A DNA stretch of 64,000 nt. Source: Thermoanaerobacter sp. A7A. GTDB taxonomy: Bacteria > Bacillota > Thermoanaerobacteria > Thermoanaerobacterales > Thermoanaerobacteraceae. Location of the stretch: positions 1-64,000 of the forward strand of contig NZ_AVAF01000171.1 in the NCBI RefSeq assembly GCF_000445185.1. The letters are read 5' to 3'. A program made the position numbers and the translations under genes. How positions within the stretch are numbered: the stretch's first letter is position 1; each line of letters begins with the position of its first letter. Below, piece after piece: positions 1 through 56,846 of this stretch. The notes beneath the pieces were generated by a model that saw only the letters and a list, made by a program, of their open reading frames with translations, ran no database searches and had not been told where the DNA came from.

Positions 1-1739
1 ATGTTTCATTACCATCCATTTCTTCAACTTCATATTGGTTTTTAGCCTACCTATAAGGAATTGAAACCATTGCTTTGAAAAGCAATTGTTTTACCTAAAA
101 TTCGTTTTTAGCCTACCTATAAGGAATTGAAACCGGACCCAGAAGACTGTTCCAGGGAGGACAGGCTCTTTGGTTTTTAGCCTACCTATAAGGAATTGAA
201 ACTTGAATGGGCCAGGAGCGGACCGAAGGACATCGGAGTTTTTAGCCTACCTATAAGGAATTGAAACGGTCCGCGTATGAACGCGGCGAAATTGACGAGG
301 AAAGGTTTTTAGCCTACCTATAAGGAATTGAAACCAAGCCGGTGTTCCAGGAAGGATTCGTCCACCCAGGGTTTTTAGCCTACCTATAAGGAATTGAAAC
401 ATTCACAGTAGAATTGTACTGCTGCATTTATTTTTCGTTTTTAGCCTACCTATAAGGAATTGAAACCGGACCCAGAAGACTGTTCCAGGGAGGACAGGCT
501 CTTTGGTTTTTAGCCTACCTGTAAGGAATTGAAACAGTGTTTTTTGACGAATTTTTTAATTTTTTTATAAAGTTTTTAGCCTACCTGTAAGGAATTGAAA
601 CAGGAGGTTGATGATATTTGATAGATTTTGATAGCTTACAGTTTTTAGCCTACCTGTAAGGAATTGAAACATTGTAAAATGTGAGTGAGGATTTTTTTCT
701 TTTAAGCGTTTTTAGCCTACCTGTAAGGAATTGAAACCTTCTTCTTCTAAAAAATCAATGTCTAAAACTTGACGTTTTTAGCCTACCTGTAAGGAATTGA
801 AACGAAAACAAAATTCTAATTAGACAAAATAAATATTTCGTTTTTAGCCTACCTGTAAGGAATTGAAACCCATTTACAGCTCCATAACCCACATTTTGAG
901 CTCCGGTTTTTAGCCTACCTGTAAGGAATTGAAACCCTTCTTTCTCTTTGTCTCCAAAACGTATTTCATGTTTGTTTTTAGCCTACCTGTAAGGAATTGA
1001 AACTATGTGTGGTGGCTATAATTCTGGTAGCGGTGCTGTGTTTTTAGCCTACCTGTAAGGAATTGAAACTATACTCAAGTTCAGAAACAATTCCACGACT
1101 TTATTTGTTTTTAGCCTACCTGTAAGGAATTGAAACTATATGATGAAGCAGGTCAAACAAAAACGATACAGTGGTTTTTAGCCTACCTGTAAGGAATTGA
1201 AACCGATTTGAATGATTTTGTGATATATGTGAATGGGACGGTTTTTAGCCTACCTGTAAGGAATTGAAACGCAGCACTGGCTATCTTGGGTAATGCAGGT
1301 ATTAAAGGTTTTTAGCCTACCTGTAAGGAATTGAAACTAATCGAGTTTACGCCGTTCGAAGCAAACAACAACGGTTTTTAGCCTACCTGTAAGGAATTGA
1401 AACTTTTTTATGCTCTTAGAAAGAAGAGGATACAACAGGGTTTTTAGCCTACCTGTAAGGAATTGAAACTTTTGCAGTTTGCAGCTGTCGCAGCAGCAAT
1501 AGGGCCTGTTTTTAGCCTACCTGTAAGGAATTGAAACCACTGCTTGGGGCCATAGTGGCGCTATTTGTGGGGCGGGTTTTTAGCCTACCTGTAAGGAATT
1601 GAAACATAAATGAAATCATTATAGCTCCAGATGGCTTAACTAAGTTTTTAGCCTACCTGTAAGGAATTGAAACTCATCGGTTTTTACATGCAGTATTAGA
1701 GACTGCGTAGTTTTTAGCCTACCTGTAAGGAATTGAAAC
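1..1739 (+). CRISPR. CRISPR array, 26 full repeats visible (first 38-67, last 1710-1739), array continues left of window
   Basis: 30-bp repeat GTTTTTAGCCTACCT(A/G)TAAGGAATTGAAAC with 35-39 bp spacers; 3' ATTGAAAC is typical of a Cas6 5'-handle, so crRNA direction is + and the leader should lie left of the window. Repeats 1-7 carry CCTATAAGG, repeats 8-26 CCTGTAAGG. Confidence 0.98.
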
Positions 1740-7891: not shown

Positions 7892-9817
7892 ATGGAGCTT
7901 ACAAAGCCAATAAAAATAGGTAATTTAAATTTAAAAAATCGGGTAGTAATGGCGCCTGTTAAAACTGGTTATGCTACATCAGAGGGACAGGTTACAGAGG
8001 ACCTAATTCAATATTATGTCAATAGAGCAAAAGGGGGAGTAGGTTTAATTGTTTTAGAATCAGCATATGTAGACCTTTCAGGGAAAGAAATTCCGCGTCA
8101 ATTAGGTATTTATGATGATTCAATGGTAGAGGGGCTTCGCCACCTTATTACCCCCATACAGGAGGATGGTAGCAAAGTCGCAGTCTACATCAACCATGCG
8201 GGGCGGATAGCAAATCCAATGGTAACTAAATTACCCCTTATCGCACCTTCTCCAATAGCTTGTCCAACTATTGGAGTTGAACCACAAGGAATACCTCATG
8301 AGGACATAAAGAAATGGCAAAATACTTACGTAAAAGCTGCTGTCAGAGCTTATGAAGCTGGTGCAGATGCATTGGAAATTCAATTTGGACATGGTTATCT
8401 CATTCACCAGTTTTTTTCACCTCATACTAACAAAAGAGAGGATGAATATGGTGGCAGTTTTGAGAATAGAATTCGCTTTGGGATGGAAATATTAGATGAA
8501 ATAAAGAAAGAGATAGGTGCTGATTTTCCAATTATTGTACGCATTAGTGCTGATGAATTTGTGCCAGGAGGTTGGACATTAGAGGATGCGATCCGTTTGG
8601 CTAAAGCATTAGAAGATAAAGGTGTTGCTGCTATTGATGTTTCTTTAGGAAGTAGCTGTGAGTCTGGTGCTATTACATTGCAAACTTTGGGAACGCAAAA
8701 AGGATTGGCATGGGAATTTGCTTCAAAAATAAAAGAACAGGTCAATATTCCTGTTATCGCTGTCGGGCGAATCAATACGCCAGAATTGGCAGAAGAAATA
8801 TTGGTATCAGGCAAAGCTGATTTAGTTGCTCTTGGACGGCCTTTGGTGGCTGATCCGCTATTTGTAGAAAAGGCTATATCAGGACGCAGCAAGGAAATAC
8901 GCCGTTGTGCTGCTTGTCACCAAGGCTGTTTAGATGAATTAAGAGCAGGACGCCGTTTTGGTTGTAATTTCAACCCATCAGTTGGCAATGAGGAGGAAAT
9001 CGAAATACAAAAAGCACCTCAACCTGGGAAGAAAGTATTTATCATTGGTGCTGGACTTGCAGGCTTGGAAGCAGCTTATACTGCTGCTGTAAGAGGACAT
9101 AAAGTATACATTTATGAAGAAAAAGGAGAGATAGGAGGTCAAGTTTTGCCCGGTTCTGTTCCTCCTCACAAAGAAGAATTGAAAGGTATCGTGGAATACT
9201 ATAAAGAGGTACTTCCAAAGGTTGGTGTCACTTTAAATCTTAAGCATAAAGTTACAGCAGAAGAAATAGCAAAATGGGAGGCTGACGAAGTCGTCTTTGC
9301 GACAGGAGGACAGCCAATTGTACCACCTATTCCCGGACTTAAAGAATATGGCTTTTTGACAGCTGTGGAAGTATTAAGAGGAGAAAAACAAGCAGGCAAT
9401 AAAGTTGCTATAATTGGTGGCGGCTTAATAGGCATGGAAACTGCTGATTATCTCTCAGAACAAGGCAAAGAAGTTATAGTTATTGAGCTTTTGGAGGAAG
9501 TAGCAAGAGACATGGGAATTTTTGAGAAGAATCTCATTATGAAGCGCTTAAAAGAACGTGGGGTTGAAATTTATGTAAAAACTCGTCTAAAAGAAGTAGG
9601 AAAGGCGCTTTTGGTGGAGACACCTGAAGGGGAAAAAGAGCTGCCACTTCCCGATACTATAGTTTTAGCTGTGGGTTTAAAACCAGATCCTTCTCTTTAC
9701 GAAGAGGTCAGTAAGGTTTTACCACAAGAAAAGCTTCATGTTATAGGAGATGCTAAAGAAGTAAGAAAGATTGTCCACGCTATTTCTGAGGGACGTAATT
9801 TAGGTTTTTCCCTATAA
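7892..9817 (+). CDS. NADH:flavin oxidoreductase / 2,4-dienoyl-CoA reductase-like (OYE domain + FAD/NAD domain)
   Basis: N-terminal OYE TIM-barrel motifs, CxxCxxGC Fe-S cluster region, C-terminal GAGLAGLEAAYTAAVRGH and GGGLIGMETADYL. Confidence 0.93.
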   Translation: MELTKPIKIGNLNLKNRVVMAPVKTGYATSEGQVTEDLIQYYVNRAKGGVGLIVLESAYVDLSGKEIPRQLGIYDDSMVEGLRHLITPIQEDGSKVAVYINHAGRIANPMVTKLPLIAPSPIACPTIGVEPQGIPHEDIKKWQNTYVKAAVRAYEAGADALEIQFGHGYLIHQFFSPHTNKREDEYGGSFENRIRFGMEILDEIKKEIGADFPIIVRISADEFVPGGWTLEDAIRLAKALEDKGVAAIDVSLGSSCESGAITLQTLGTQKGLAWEFASKIKEQVNIPVIAVGRINTPELAEEILVSGKADLVALGRPLVADPLFVEKAISGRSKEIRRCAACHQGCLDELRAGRRFGCNFNPSVGNEEEIEIQKAPQPGKKVFIIGAGLAGLEAAYTAAVRGHKVYIYEEKGEIGGQVLPGSVPPHKEELKGIVEYYKEVLPKVGVTLNLKHKVTAEEIAKWEADEVVFATGGQPIVPPIPGLKEYGFLTAVEVLRGEKQAGNKVAIIGGGLIGMETADYLSEQGKEVIVIELLEEVARDMGIFEKNLIMKRLKERGVEIYVKTRLKEVGKALLVETPEGEKELPLPDTIVLAVGLKPDPSLYEEVSKVLPQEKLHVIGDAKEVRKIVHAISEGRNLGFSL

Positions 9818-18660: not shown

Positions 18661-19013
18661 AACTTTATAAGATGAATAATTTCTTGCAAAAAGCATGTTT
18701 TATAAATAAAAAATTTTATTTTCCCAAAGAAGGAAAAATGTAATTTATGTAGAATAATATTGAATATGAAATTTATATAACATTAAATATTAATCATACA
18801 AATAACCAAGCAAAAGATTAGTATATTATATTTTAAATAAAATGTCTCAAATTCAGCAATAATTACAAATTTTATTTATAATTATTAAACTTATGCAATC
18901 TAAGGGCTTATTACCTTAGATTATAGATATTTCATAAAGGGGGGTGAAGGAGAGAAAATTGCATTTTTTTGTCGGAACATAAGAAAGATGAAAAACAAGG
19001 GGGTTAAGATTTT

Positions 19014-22000
19014 ATGGGCAAAAGGTTTTTAGTTTTTCTGATTACATTTACATTGGTATTCAGTGTTTTTAGCTCTTTTGGTTATTCGGAGCAAATGCCA
19101 TCATCAGATAACCCAAAACTTACTTTAGATTCGCTAAAAATCGATTATAATCTTGTAAAACAGATTGCTAAAGATAATTTTAAAGAAACTGCTAAACCCT
19201 ATCAAAGCAAGTCAAAAATTGTAGAGCAATTTGGAGAAGAAATACAAAATTTAAGAGATGGTTCCAAGCAAGAGATTGAAAAATATAATCCTGATGAAAC
19301 CGTACGAGTTATTGTGCAATTAGAAAAGGATAGTCTTGCTTCTTTTGCATTAAAGTCTAACAAGACTCTCAAAACTTTGACGCAAAATGAAAAAACGACT
19401 GTTTTAAACAAAATTACTCAAGAACAAACTCAATTAAAAAGCGTATTGAGCAAAAATTTCAATTTTAAAACAAGACATACATATAAAACCGTTTTAAATG
19501 GCATAAGTGGCGAGGTAAAGGTTAAAGACATAGAAAAAATTAAAACATTGCCTGGAGTAAAAGATGTAAGAATTGTAAATGAGTATTTTCTTGACATGAC
19601 AACAGCGATCTATTCAACAAATGCACCAACCGTGTGGAATGACTTGGGATATAAAGGTGAAGGAATGGTTGTTGCAATAGTAGATACAGGAATAGATTAT
19701 AGGCACCAGGATATGAAAATAACAGATAGTTCCAAAGTAAAATTGACTCAAGCAAAAGTACAGGAAATAGCAAATACAACAGGTCTTCCTTATAAATATT
19801 TTACAGATAAAGTACCTGTTGGTTGGAACTGGGCAGACAACAATGATCAAATTATAGATATTGGGGCTACACAGTCAATGCACGGGCAACACGTTGCAGG
19901 TATAGTTGCAGCAAATGGTAATATTAAAGGGGTTGCACCTGAGGCACAGCTTATAGCTGAAAAGGTATTTTCAAACAATCCTAATTTTGCATCTGCTTTT
20001 TCGGACGATATAGTAGCAGGTATTGACCACGCTGTCGCATTTGGTGCAGATGTTATAAACATGAGCTTAGGCTCAACAGCAGGTTTCGTTCGCCCTGATG
20101 ACCCTGAGCATCTGGCGATAAAAAACGCTGTTGACAATGGCGTAATAGTTGTTGTTTCAGCTGGTAACTCCAGTTATTCCACGAGTGCAGAATTTTATCC
20201 ATATGCAATGGATCCAGATATAGGAACTGTCGGCTCGCCTGGCTTGTGGCTTGATGCTATTCAAGTGGCTGCTTCTATAAATCCTGGACTTACAGGAAAA
20301 AGTTTTTCTGTAAATCCTGCTCCACAAGGTTTTGATAGAGTAGTATATTCTGTAGGAAGTCCTACAGACCATGACCCTATTGACCCTGCAGATATCTTGA
20401 AAGGAGAGTATGAAGTAGTATATTGTGGATTAGGTAGACCCGAGGATTTTCAAGGTAAAGATGTAGTGGGTAAAGTTGCCCTTATTTCAAGAGGATCTAT
20501 TACATTTAACGCAAAGACGATAAATGCACAAAATGCTGGTGCTATAGCTGCAGTAATTTTCAATAATACTACAGGAACAATTTCAATGGCATTAGGAGAA
20601 GGTACGAAAATTCCTTCTGTGTCTATTTTAAGAGATGCAGGTCTTGCAATTAAAGCTTTGTTAGATCAAGGGCAAAAAGTCACAGTAAAATTTGATGGTG
20701 CTATAGGAACAAATAATTTAGGAGTTCCTCCGGGAGACAATGTAACGGACTTTTCATCCTGGGGGGTTACACCAAGCTTTGACTTTAAACCGGAAATAAT
20801 GGCACCTGGCGGCGGAATATATTCAACACTTAACAAAGATTCCTACGGTTTGATGAGCGGTACATCTATGTCATCACCTCATGTGGCAGGTGCAATGGCG
20901 CTAATTGCTGAAGCTCTTAAAGATAAAGTATCTAAAGGTGAATTGACCTTCAAAGATGGCAGAGATTTTGTTGAAATGGCTAAAATAATGGCTATGAATA
21001 CAGCCAAAGTTATAATTGATACAAATGACAATGCTGCTCCTTATACAGGTAAAATCTTAAGAAGTCCTAAGCCTTATTCACCGAGACAACAAGGTGCAGG
21101 TATGATTCAAATAGATAAGGCAATCAAGACACCTGTGACAATTACAGATGCAAATGGGAAAGCAGGTATTGCACTTGGCAGTATTGGAAATAGTGCGACT
21201 TTTACCTTGACTCTTAAAAATCATAGTAACAGCGATGTTACGTATACCTTAAGGGACGAGTATGGAGTTTTGACAGATTATGTTCTTTGGGGATTTAATT
21301 TTGCTGAAACAACAACCCTTACAGGAGGGACAGTTAAATTTGATAAAGATACTGTGACAGTGCCTGCGAACGGACAAGCGACTGTCAATGTTACATTGAT
21401 AATTCCTCAAAATGCTCCACAAGATATTTTTGCGGAAGGATTTTTAAGCTTTATTCCAGAAGATAGCAATCTTCCCAAACTAAGCGTACCTTATACAGCT
21501 TTTTATGGAAGTTGGGATGAACCAAGAGTAATAGATTCACCTCTTTGGGAAGATGACACTTATTATGGATTTACAGGTATGGCAGGAGTTATAAACAATG
21601 AATTATATTTCTTAGGGAACCTTGGGAGCAAGACGCCTGATCCATCTACAATTGCCATATCTCCTAATAACGATGGTGTATTTGACTATGTACAGCCAGT
21701 GCTTTCATTTATGAGAAATGCAAGAGAGTTTAAAGTAAGTGTTGTAGATGAGAAAGGAAATGTAATAAGAGAAGTATCCCAAGAGGAATATTTAAGAAAG
21801 AACGTAGCAGAGACATCCAAAGCTCAGATTTCTGATTTTTGGATATGGGACGGCAAAGCATTTAACCCTGTAACAGGACAATTTGGAGCAGTTCCTGATG
21901 GACAATATTATATGCGCTTTGAATCTAAGATAGATTATCCGAATGCTAGAACCCAAGTTCTTCAAATGCCTGTTAAAGTCGATACAATGCCTCCTGAAGT

Positions 22001-53121: not shown

Positions 53122-53805
53122 GTGGGAGATAACCGAAAGATTTATGTAGTGGATGATGACAAGAATATATGTGAAATAGTTTCTTTGTACCTTGAAAAAG
53201 AGGGTTTTGATGTAGAGCAGATATACGATGGGCAAACCGCACTAAAGAAAATACAAGAAAAACCTCCAAAGCTCGTCATACTTGACATAATGTTGCCAGG
53301 AATTGATGGTATAGCTCTTTGCAGAGAAGTCAGAAAATTTTCAAAGGTGCCTATAATAATGCTTACCGCAAAAGGGGATACACTTGATAAGGTATTGGCT
53401 TTAGAGATTGGCGCTGATGACTACATCGTAAAGCCATTTGACGGGAAAGAATTGGTAGCAAGAGTTAAAGCGGTTTTAAGAAGATATGAACCGGAAAGTG
53501 AGGAAAAACAGGCTGTTTCTTATCCAGAACTTTATGTAAGTTTAAGCGAATATAAAGTTGTTTATAAAGGGCAAAATGTAGATTTAACTCCCAAAGAGTT
53601 AGAACTTTTATATTTCTTATGTACACATCCTAACAGGGTTTTCACGAGAGACCAGCTATTAGAAAATGTATGGGGTTATGATTATATGGGAGATAGTCGT
53701 ACAGTAGATGTTCATATAAAGCGGCTTAGAGAGAAAATGGGAGATGGCCCTAATTGGAAACTTACCACCGTATGGGGTGTAGGTTATAAATTTGAGGTGA
53801 ACTAA
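53122..53805 (+). CDS. OmpR/PhoB-family response regulator
   Basis: receiver domain (VVDDDKNI, LVILDIMLPGIDG, PIIMLTAKG) + winged helix DNA-binding domain. Confidence 0.95.
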   Translation: MGDNRKIYVVDDDKNICEIVSLYLEKEGFDVEQIYDGQTALKKIQEKPPKLVILDIMLPGIDGIALCREVRKFSKVPIIMLTAKGDTLDKVLALEIGADDYIVKPFDGKELVARVKAVLRRYEPESEEKQAVSYPELYVSLSEYKVVYKGQNVDLTPKELELLYFLCTHPNRVFTRDQLLENVWGYDYMGDSRTVDVHIKRLREKMGDGPNWKLTTVWGVGYKFEVN

Positions 53806-53807
53806 AT

Positions 53808-55220
53808 TTGAGCAAAAATAGACTTTTTAAAAAACTTTTTATAAGCAATATGATTATCATCCTTATTACTTTGTCTATTCTTTCAGGGATGTTTTATCTG
53901 ATGTTTCAAAACTATTACTTTGCTGACAAAGAAAAAATAATGTTAGAAGAGGCTCAAGAAATAAATGCAATTTTAAATGAATTTGCGGTAGGAGACATAA
54001 ACATAGATAAATGGAATCAAGAACTAAACGTTGTTACTAGATTGATTAATGCTACTGTATGGATCGTAGATAAAGAAGGGCTAATTTACAGTCAATCACA
54101 ACAGCAGGGCAAAGCATGGACAGGAGTAAGCCTCAGTAAAGAAGAAATAAAAAGCATTTTAGATGGACAATCTGTTGTAAAAAAAGGATATTTTGGTGGC
54201 AAATTCAATCAGCCTGTTTTGACAGTAGGAGTGCCTCTTGTTATAAATGGCCGAATTGAAGGTGCTATATTTATGCATGCTCCTTTGACAGAAATGAATA
54301 AAACTATTATTAACATCTTTATTTTAATGCTTTTATCTGGAGGAGTAGCTCTTATAATAGGTTTTGTGCTCATTTCTTATACTTCCAGTAAAATATCTCA
54401 GCCTCTTAAAGAGATGAGCTTAGCTGTTCAGCAGGTAGCGAAGGGGAATTTTTCTGCAAGGGTACAACATAAGGAAGAAGATGAAATAGGGGATTTGGCT
54501 AAATCCTTTAATATTATGGCAAAAGAATTAGAACAATTAGAAAACATGAGAAAAGATTTTGTGGCAAATGTTTCTCACGAATTGAGGTCTCCATTGACCT
54601 CTATACAAGGATATATAGATGGGATATTAGACGGTACTATTCCAAAGGAAAAAGCTTGCGATTATCTTAAAATAGTACAAAAAGAAACACGGAGGATGTC
54701 TCGGCTCATAGACGATTTTCTTGAAATGACTAAACTTGAGTCAGGTCAATTTCCACTTAATAAGACTGAATTTGATATAAATGAACTTATAAGACTGGCT
54801 GTTATAAAGTTTGAAAAAAGGATAGTTGAAAAAGATTTAGCTGTTAAGGTTGATTTTGAAGAAGACAGACGAATAGTTATAGGGGATAGGGATAAGATAG
54901 AGCAAGTTTTGACAAATCTTATAGATAATGCAATAAAGTTTTCTAAAGAAAGGGGTATAATTCATATTTTTACTGAAATAAAAGATGACAAAGTATTCAT
55001 TACTATAAAAGATAATGGAATAGGTATTTCTCCAGAAGACCAAGAGCATATATGGGATAGATTTTATAAAGCGGACAAATCGAGAGGAAAAGATGGAGCA
55101 GGCCTTGGGCTTTATATAGTAAAGCGTATTATAAATGCTCATAACGAGGAAATATGGGTAGAAAGTGAAGTTGGTAAAGGTACAGCATTTACTTTTACTT
55201 TGTCGGTGAAAAAATTTTAA
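53808..55220 (+). CDS. HAMP-containing sensor histidine kinase
   Basis: FVANVSHELRSPLTSIQGYIDGI H-box, DNGIGISPEDQEHIWDRFYKADKSR, GLGLYIVK. Confidence 0.95.
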   Translation: MSKNRLFKKLFISNMIIILITLSILSGMFYLMFQNYYFADKEKIMLEEAQEINAILNEFAVGDINIDKWNQELNVVTRLINATVWIVDKEGLIYSQSQQQGKAWTGVSLSKEEIKSILDGQSVVKKGYFGGKFNQPVLTVGVPLVINGRIEGAIFMHAPLTEMNKTIINIFILMLLSGGVALIIGFVLISYTSSKISQPLKEMSLAVQQVAKGNFSARVQHKEEDEIGDLAKSFNIMAKELEQLENMRKDFVANVSHELRSPLTSIQGYIDGILDGTIPKEKACDYLKIVQKETRRMSRLIDDFLEMTKLESGQFPLNKTEFDINELIRLAVIKFEKRIVEKDLAVKVDFEEDRRIVIGDRDKIEQVLTNLIDNAIKFSKERGIIHIFTEIKDDKVFITIKDNGIGISPEDQEHIWDRFYKADKSRGKDGAGLGLYIVKRIINAHNEEIWVESEVGKGTAFTFTLSVKKF

Positions 55221-55230
55221 AAAATCACAA

Positions 55231-55280
55231 TAAAATATTTACACTTTGTTAACACTTTATTCATAAATAAGGGATACAAT
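55231..55280 (+). promoter_or_regulatory. Response-regulator-style promoter module, copy 1
   Basis: taaaatatttacactttgttaacactttattcataaataagggaTACAAT; aligns gaplessly with 55401-55450. Confidence 0.65.
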
Positions 55281-55287
55281 AATATTT

Positions 55288-55365
55288 GAGAGCGACAAAT
55301 GCCTCTCCTTGACCTCCCTTATCATAGCGGTCCAAGTGAATACTTGGGCCGCACATTTATTTATA
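55288..55365 (+). ncRNA. Putative small RNA between the two promoter modules
   Basis: starts after TACAAT; C-rich stretch CTCTCCTTGACCTCCC; 11-bp hairpin GCGGTCCAAGT gaat ACTTGGGCCGC (55327-55352). Confidence 0.45.
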
Positions 55366-55400
55366 AAAAACAACGCGGAAATTTTTTAATAAAAACTACT

Positions 55401-55450
55401 TAAAATCTTTACATCATGTTCATAATTTGTTAATAAAAAGGGGTTATAAT
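55401..55450 (+). promoter_or_regulatory. Response-regulator-style promoter module, copy 2 (htrA promoter)
   Basis: taaaatctttacatcatgttcataatttgttaataaaaaggggtTATAAT. Confidence 0.7.
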
Positions 55451-55484
55451 TAAAAGCAAGAAAGAACAAAAGGAGTGAGTGATT

Positions 55485-56846
55485 ATGGATTACGAAAAAG
55501 ACTTTGAAGATAAAATTGAAAAGAATGATCCGGAGAATGTAGTTCTTCCAGAAGAAAATGAAAAAGAAGAGCTATATCAAACAGAAGAATTAAATAGCGA
55601 AATATTAAAAGCAGAGGAACAAAAGCAAGAGGAGTTGGAAACTACTGCGCCAATTCCTAAAGTGGTATTTAGAAACAACAAAAAGAGTTTGGGGAAGATG
55701 GTAAAAAGATTCAGAAAGAGAATGTTAGCTTCTTTTATCGCAGTAGCGTTGGTGGCAGCTTTAATCGGCGGAGGAATTACAGGAACTGTAATGAAATACT
55801 ACGTGACCCCAAATGATGCGTCAGCACAAGTTGTTACAAGATATTTACCTCTAGATGCTACTTCGTCAGACGAAAGCGGTATTTTAAATTTGATACCCAA
55901 CATTTACAAAATAGTGAGCCCAGCAGTTGTAGAAATTAGTACAAGTGTTGCTTACAACTACGGTTATAGAACTAGAGGTAGCGGTTCTGGATTTATCATA
56001 AGCTCTGATGGATACATTGTCACAAATAACCATGTAATTGACGGAGCATCAAAAATCACAGTAAAACTTTCAGATGGAAGAAGTGCTGATGCAAAACTTG
56101 TAGGAAAAGATGATAGAACAGACCTCGCAGTACTTAAAATAAACCTTCCTAATTTACCCATTGTAAAACTAGGAGATTCTTCCAAACTCCAACCTGGGGA
56201 ATTGGCAATTGCTATAGGCAATCCTCTTGGAGAATCCTTTGCAGGTACAGTCACAGCAGGTATAATAAGCGGACTCAACAGGAATCTCCAAAGTGATTAT
56301 GGGCCTGTCAAACTCATACAAACAGATGCAGCTATAAATCCTGGCAACAGCGGCGGACCTCTTGTGAACAGTAAAGCAGAAGTTATAGGTATAACAAGTG
56401 TTAAGCTCACTTCAATAGGACCAAGTATTCAAGACCCTTTTGGAATGTTCCAGAGCCAAGAAACTCCTGTTGAGGGTATGGGTTTTGCAATTCCAATAAA
56501 CGAGGCAAAACCTATAATTGACCAGATAATAAAACACGGCTATGTAGAAAGGCCTATGATGGGAATAGGTGCTCAAACTATTACACAACAAGATGCAGCC
56601 CGATATAATTTGCCCGTAGGAGTGTATGTAGTTCAAGTTCAGCCAAATAGTGGAGCAGAAAAAGCTGGTATTCAACCAGGAGATGTGATAATAAAGGTTG
56701 ATGGTAAAGACATTACTTCCTTTGAGGATTTACAAGGCATATTAAATAACCACAAAGTTGGAGATGTAATAAATGTAACAATTTGGAGAAATAGCAAAAC
56801 ATTTACAGTTCCTGTAAAGTTGCAAAGCAGTGCAAACTTTCAATAA
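55485..56846 (+). CDS. htrA: HtrA/DegP-like membrane-anchored serine protease with PDZ
   Basis: GSGSGFIISSDGYIVTNNHVIDGA, TDLAVLK, NPGNSGGPLVN, C-terminal PDZ; start 55479-55485. Confidence 0.95.
   Translation: MDYEKDFEDKIEKNDPENVVLPEENEKEELYQTEELNSEILKAEEQKQEELETTAPIPKVVFRNNKKSLGKMVKRFRKRMLASFIAVALVAALIGGGITGTVMKYYVTPNDASAQVVTRYLPLDATSSDESGILNLIPNIYKIVSPAVVEISTSVAYNYGYRTRGSGSGFIISSDGYIVTNNHVIDGASKITVKLSDGRSADAKLVGKDDRTDLAVLKINLPNLPIVKLGDSSKLQPGELAIAIGNPLGESFAGTVTAGIISGLNRNLQSDYGPVKLIQTDAAINPGNSGGPLVNSKAEVIGITSVKLTSIGPSIQDPFGMFQSQETPVEGMGFAIPINEAKPIIDQIIKHGYVERPMMGIGAQTITQQDAARYNLPVGVYVVQVQPNSGAEKAGIQPGDVIIKVDGKDITSFEDLQGILNNHKVGDVINVTIWRNSKTFTVPVKLQSSANFQ

Follow-up and report, generated by a model that had tools for sequence, protein, structure and literature searches.

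Background

In Streptococcus, the OmpR-family two-component system CiaRH acts through a direct-repeat operator to drive htrA together with several small RNAs, the csRNAs (PMC3091779, PMC8186281). The csRNAs, which are 51-202 nt long and present in multiple copies, consist of two stem-loops around an unpaired stretch with complementarity to Shine-Dalgarno sequences (PMC3091779, PMC8186281), and CiaRH has been reported only from streptococci (PMC3091779). In Listeria, envelope stress induces htrA through LisRK along with the multi-copy CU-rich RNAs LhrC1-5, Rli22 and Rli33-1; the LhrC-type RNAs bind Shine-Dalgarno regions via UCCC-type motifs (PMC4132741, PMC11236296). A C-rich (UCCC) motif also serves to block translation initiation in RsaE, FsrA and other Gram-positive RNAs (summarised in PMC4132741).

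The window considered here, i.e. the whole stretch of 64,000 nucleotides of Thermoanaerobacter sp. A7A DNA that was analysed, contains a segment (Table 1) that is probably the gene of a trans-acting small RNA of ~75 nt, co-activated with htrA by a two-component system and acting as an anti-Shine-Dalgarno repressor. Shared with the CiaRH-csRNA system are the OmpR-family regulator, the direct repeats, the combination of htrA with a small RNA, and the unpaired anti-Shine-Dalgarno stretch. However, the CiaR site is TTTAAG-N5-TTTAAG, whereas the repeats found here are TTnAyA-N5-TTnAyA-N5-TTnAhA and do not conform to the CiaR motif; the csRNA nonamer (..UCCUAAA.) and its anti-AUG are not found, the core here being CUCUCCUUGACCUCCCUUAU (a CAU is present 3' of the core in the window's genus only); and the RNA gene lies between kinase and htrA, usually as one copy. 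With LhrC there is in common, as judged by sequence, a two-component system tied to htrA and to a C-rich RNA; unlike LhrC, an Hfq-binding RNA with three separate CU-rich sites, the RNA here has one 20-nt core of two modules. RsaE, FsrA and similar C-rich RNAs are under different regulators, and have the C-rich motif in common with this RNA but show no Rfam sequence match to it.

Searches of Rfam at the gathering score and at E<=10 yielded no relevant family, LhrC included; the only match, Srn266, was rejected, being on the opposite strand and scoring 24 bits against a cut-off of 63. A literature search that covered few subscription papers gave no description of this RNA in these thermophilic anaerobes. 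The RNA appears to follow the same logic as csRNA and LhrC, for both of which that logic has been demonstrated by experiment (PMC3091779, PMC8186281; PMC4132741, PMC11236296), with no detectable sequence relationship to them. It belongs to neither by the features tested, and apparently represents a small-RNA family that is new but functionally of a known kind.

Organization of the locus

The genes on the + strand are ordered regulator, kinase, 258-bp gap, htrA, which bears out the original prediction of an OmpR-family regulator gene and a kinase gene immediately upstream. The regulator falls below all NCBIfam equivalog cut-offs, the nearest being YycF/MtrA/PhoB, and the protease matches TIGR02037 with E=5e-95 yet stays under the curated cut-off. 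Since none of the three proteins (regulator, kinase, HtrA) reaches an NCBIfam equivalog cut-off, the names WalRK, PhoPR and CiaRH are unwarranted for the system. Translation of htrA likely begins at ATG 55485 rather than at the listed GTG 55479. A CRISPR array is present elsewhere in the window (38-1739, minus strand); its 26 repeats match Rfam CRISPR-DR2 and come in two versions that differ slightly by score.

Table 1. Features of the regulator-kinase-htrA locus, in window coordinates
Feature	Position	Strand	Description
OmpR/PhoB-family response regulator	53122..53805	+	227 aa; Pfam Response_reg + Trans_reg_C; putative activator of both promoters
Membrane sensor histidine kinase	53808..55220	+	470 aa; HAMP-HisKA-HATPase
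Promoter box 1 (sRNA promoter)	55238..55280	+	TTTACA-N5-TTAACA-N5-TTCATA-N9-TACAAT; -10 at 55275-55280
Small RNA gene, predicted ends	55287..55362	+	~75 nt; start inferred ~7 nt past -10, end at the U-rich tail
Near-invariant C-rich core	55303..55322	+	20 nt; CTCTCCTTGACCTCCCTTAT; two anti-Shine-Dalgarno modules
Terminator hairpin	55327..55352	+	11 bp; compensatory changes in relatives
Promoter box 2 (htrA promoter)	55408..55450	+	TTTACA-N5-TTCATA-N5-TTAATA-N9-TATAAT; -10 at 55445-55450
htrA/degP-type membrane-anchored serine protease	ORF 55479..56846	+	Trypsin_2 + PDZ

Twin promoter boxes

The gapless alignment proposed for 55231-55280 and 55401-55450 was reproduced with 37/50 identities, a value that was not attained in any of 300 dinucleotide shuffles of the intergenic region (mean best 26.4). 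The -10 boxes TACAAT and TATAAT are both present as described, and a sigma-70 scan gave no site with an acceptable -35, in keeping with the stated lack of a good -35. The 11-bp tandem repeats noted at the -35 position are likewise real, but there are three of them per promoter and not two. Other details of the original prediction did not extend to relatives: the spacing of "exactly 170 bp" ranges there from 131 to 172 bp, so that the figure is incidental and carries no information, and conservation of the GGG ahead of the -10 was not seen. Assignment of the second copy to htrA agrees with the location of box 2 after the terminator and before htrA.

When generalized to TTNAYA-N5-TTNAYA-N5-TTNAHA-N9-TANNAT, the box is found at 2 sites in the 64 kb window, both with 0 mismatches, where 0.02 sites with <=1 mismatch are expected; this expectation is indicative and not a test, because the pattern was designed after viewing these sites and those of relatives. 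Independent support for the box comes from its distribution among relatives, taken up below.

The small RNA gene

As predicted, the first promoter reads into a segment with no convincing open reading frame, and an 11-bp hairpin follows the C-rich stretch. This hairpin is the only terminator-like site within 54900-55700, and its U-tract in the window is weak (ACATTTATTTAT). The fold of 55287-55362 (z=-4.0) places an unpaired anti-Shine-Dalgarno stretch between a 5' stem-loop and the terminator. A GAGAG/CTCTC 5' stem is indeed predicted for the window sequence, but it is absent from the macA-linked copies described below and displays no covariation, and is thus optional at best. The core has the consensus CUCUCC(U/C)UGACCUCCC, essentially invariant across copies, and its stretch CUCUCCUUGACCUCCCUUAU, mostly single-stranded in the predicted fold, is complementary to AAGGGAGG and to AAGGAG; these properties are what one would expect of an antisense module directed at Shine-Dalgarno sequences.

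Conservation of the core could have another cause, namely that it encodes a short peptide or is a protein-binding site instead of an antisense module. An ATG (~55299) stands just ahead of the core in the window's genus and opens a 34-codon frame, and the conserved csRNA nonamer has been suggested to bind protein (PMC3091779). However, no Shine-Dalgarno sequence precedes the ATG, ATG and frame are both lost in Thermoanaerobacterium, and the linker differs by 2-4 nt between copies so that the frame is not preserved; with the start codon lost in the second genus and the linkers out of frame, a coding role is unlikely. Protein binding, for its part, would be compatible with antisense action. Taken as a replacement for the antisense module, a peptide or protein site is highly improbable.

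Conservation among relatives

DNA searches located the segment in 9/9 other genomes of the same genus, in 9/9 genomes from a second genus and in a single genome from a third. With a covariance model trained on 19 sequences, the sRNA was found in the kinase-htrA gap of 20/20 family genomes (Thermoanaerobacter, Caldanaerobacter and Thermoanaerobacterium, plus the third genus); conservation of the hairpin and C-rich motif in relatives, a test that had been set beforehand, was thus seen in every one. Beyond the family the model detected no convincing sRNA. Caldicellulosiruptor-type matches of 25-31 bits were rejected because by eye they seem to be another leader RNA or sequence unrelated to the sRNA.

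Mean pairwise identity within the kinase-htrA gap is highest in the core (0.99), followed by the sRNA box (0.87), the htrA box (0.79), the terminator stem-loop (0.73) and the spacer beyond the terminator (0.45). Six pairs of the terminator stem have two-sided (compensatory) changes; covariation of the whole structure was equalled in 0/500 shuffles, and slid controls were 34-45% paired versus 88%. The exact core has sixteen matches in 257 Gb of genomes, of which about half are in unrelated taxa, roughly the chance level, and the rest in Thermoanaerobacter relatives; there is none in viral contigs.

One sRNA copy is present in the window's own genome. Five second-genus genomes have six extra copies among them, for 26 copies overall: four precede a MacA/MacB-type efflux operon (Pfam HlyD, ABC ATPase, MacB_PCD/FtsX) beside a rodA-like gene, and two lie in a gene-poor region of genome G015, separated by ~1.1 kb. 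These copies bear on the possibility that the segment is a terminated htrA leader, i.e. an attenuator in which regulated readthrough past the hairpin adds to htrA expression and the RNA fragment is target-less. A leader would explain why the segment is found in 20/20 genomes directly upstream of htrA and in the same orientation; the four efflux-linked copies also precede an operon. However, htrA has its own box promoter past the terminator; neither of the two G015 copies has an htrA-like or efflux gene immediately behind it, and one of them has no convincing gene for ~1 kb downstream; and the strongest constraint is on the single-stranded core and not on an antiterminator pairing, the terminator being the only structure that RNAalifold finds. 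An attenuator of this kind is unlikely. The segment is in addition not simply the htrA 5'UTR, having its own promoter and terminator, a second promoter for htrA behind it, and six copies away from htrA. On this comparative evidence the segment is a real small-RNA gene.

An element resembling the sRNA (27-29 bits), with ACCTCCCT and a terminator, occurs in the 3'UTR directly after a box-preceded putative exported-protein gene in two genomes (G012, L088 ~9140-9240; G014, L067 1501-1590), and is possibly a 3'UTR-derived cousin of the sRNA.

Regulation and distribution of the box

A box with <=1 mismatch precedes 26/26 sRNA copies, the distance from the end of the -10 to the core being 19-23 nt, and with the twin box at htrA the RNA has its promoter in common with the protein target of the two-component system. 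Outside the family, the box is found ahead of htrA orthologues in two more families of the same order (f2 with 0 mismatches, f3 with one) and, in the same class, in three Caldicellulosiruptor-type (f4) genomes (G024 and G032 with 0 mismatches, G033 with one); for several of these orthologues it is directly behind a kinase gene. In Thermoanaerobacterium genome G010 two further htrA paralogues (L132 2476-4756, L131 1097-2405) each have the same three-repeat box, and a response-regulator gene comes after one of them. The box is absent from htrA paralogues in the same genomes that are linked to what is, by the look of its protein, presumably rlmH. The regulator of the f2 genome G022 is 64% identical to that of the window and nearly identical in the recognition-helix region (DSRTVDVHIKRLREK against DSRTVDVHVKRLREK). 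Given this box distribution and regulator conservation, the predicted binding of the box by the adjacent regulator is well supported, the link being one of adjacency and comparative distribution.

The promoters and the RNA might instead be under another regulator. PhoP/PhoB, which controls the phosphate response, is an example, since it too has boxes built of 11-bp TTnAnA repeats. The generic pattern in fact matches the pstS promoter, which lies behind a PhoR-like kinase, and that of a sugar/glycerol-phosphate-type ABC operon. However, the pstS box resembles the htrA box in layout but differs from it in sequence. In both of these Pho-type boxes the second TT is preceded by C, as is the third TT at pstS (TTAACAnnnnCTTAATAnnnnCTTTACA); the boxes of htrA and the sRNA mostly carry G, A or T at these positions. 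Moreover, the box tracks htrA orthologues across families, often right behind the kinase gene. Control by a Pho-type or other regulator is therefore improbable, and the adjacent regulator remains the putative activator. The Pho-type boxes of pstS and of the ABC operon lie at L124 899-941 and L126 404-446.

A box-like promoter with one mismatch is also found in both genera ahead of an ABC-2/Gld-like transporter operon (ABC_transp_aux, DUF4340; L125 635-4662, in the window's own genome on C2, and L133 896-4915), a candidate regulon member. Another box-like match in the window's own genome, at C4:27195 upstream of argC, was set aside as a likely coincidence, only one stretch matching.

Because the htrA box also occurs in families that lack the RNA, the promoter of htrA is probably the older element, with the RNA gene gained later by the ancestor of a single family. 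The likeness between the two promoters is consistent with duplication of one of them, but selection on a common operator would produce the same result.

Proposed mechanism

Under envelope or secretion stress the membrane kinase would activate the OmpR-family regulator, which would bind the three 11-bp direct repeats in place of a -35 element and switch on the RNA and htrA jointly. The RNA, ending at the intrinsic terminator, would mimic with its core CUCUCCUUGACCUCCCUUAU the anti-Shine-Dalgarno sequence of the ribosome and pair with the start regions of selected mRNAs, thereby repressing their translation. Conservation of the gene, sharing of the promoter, covariation of the terminator, invariance of the core and the extra copies are observed in the sequence; expression of the RNA, identity of the regulator, the inducing signal and repression of targets are what we infer. 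The shared box and its conservation lend support to the earlier suggestion of one regulon in which a single two-component system governs HtrA and a translation-targeting RNA.

A broader proposal, for and against which the case seems evenly balanced, is that this is a third, independently evolved instance of a circuit in which an OmpR-family system responding to envelope stress induces HtrA together with a multi-copy anti-Shine-Dalgarno RNA, in this case with the RNA gene between kinase and htrA and possibly born by duplication of the older htrA promoter in the family ancestor. Should the parallel with the CiaRH/csRNA and LisRK/LhrC systems hold, three distant Firmicutes lineages couple HtrA to an anti-Shine-Dalgarno RNA, and why a stress protease is repeatedly joined to translational silencing becomes testable; the coupling probably serves to lower the load of exported proteins. 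The locus adds an Rfam-unmatched small-RNA family and a first regulon sketch for this group of thermophilic anaerobes, and its promoter box provides a route to regulon prediction.

Candidate targets

Among the 20 genomes, the 14-nt complement of the core was found only on the antisense strand of the RNA genes themselves and at two chance-like sites in G003, one of which falls inside a coding frame, and a search for extended complementarity gave no outstanding conserved target. The best site in the window's own genome, with 3 mismatches and a duplex of -38.4 kcal/mol, precedes a 21-codon frame beside a transporter. The sequence AAGGGAGGTYR before an ATG recurs in several Thermoanaerobacter genomes at a gene which we take from its protein to be yqfC-like; this is a weak lead, since AAGGGAGGTYR is at the same time an ordinary strong Shine-Dalgarno sequence. 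The yqfC-like gene and the 21-codon frame may be regarded as short-seed target candidates, as leads only. Within the window, TAAAGGGGGGTGAAGGAGAG at 18935-18954 is near-complementary to the core (3 mismatches, G-U allowed) and lies in the leader of a putative exported-protein gene that starts near 19014.
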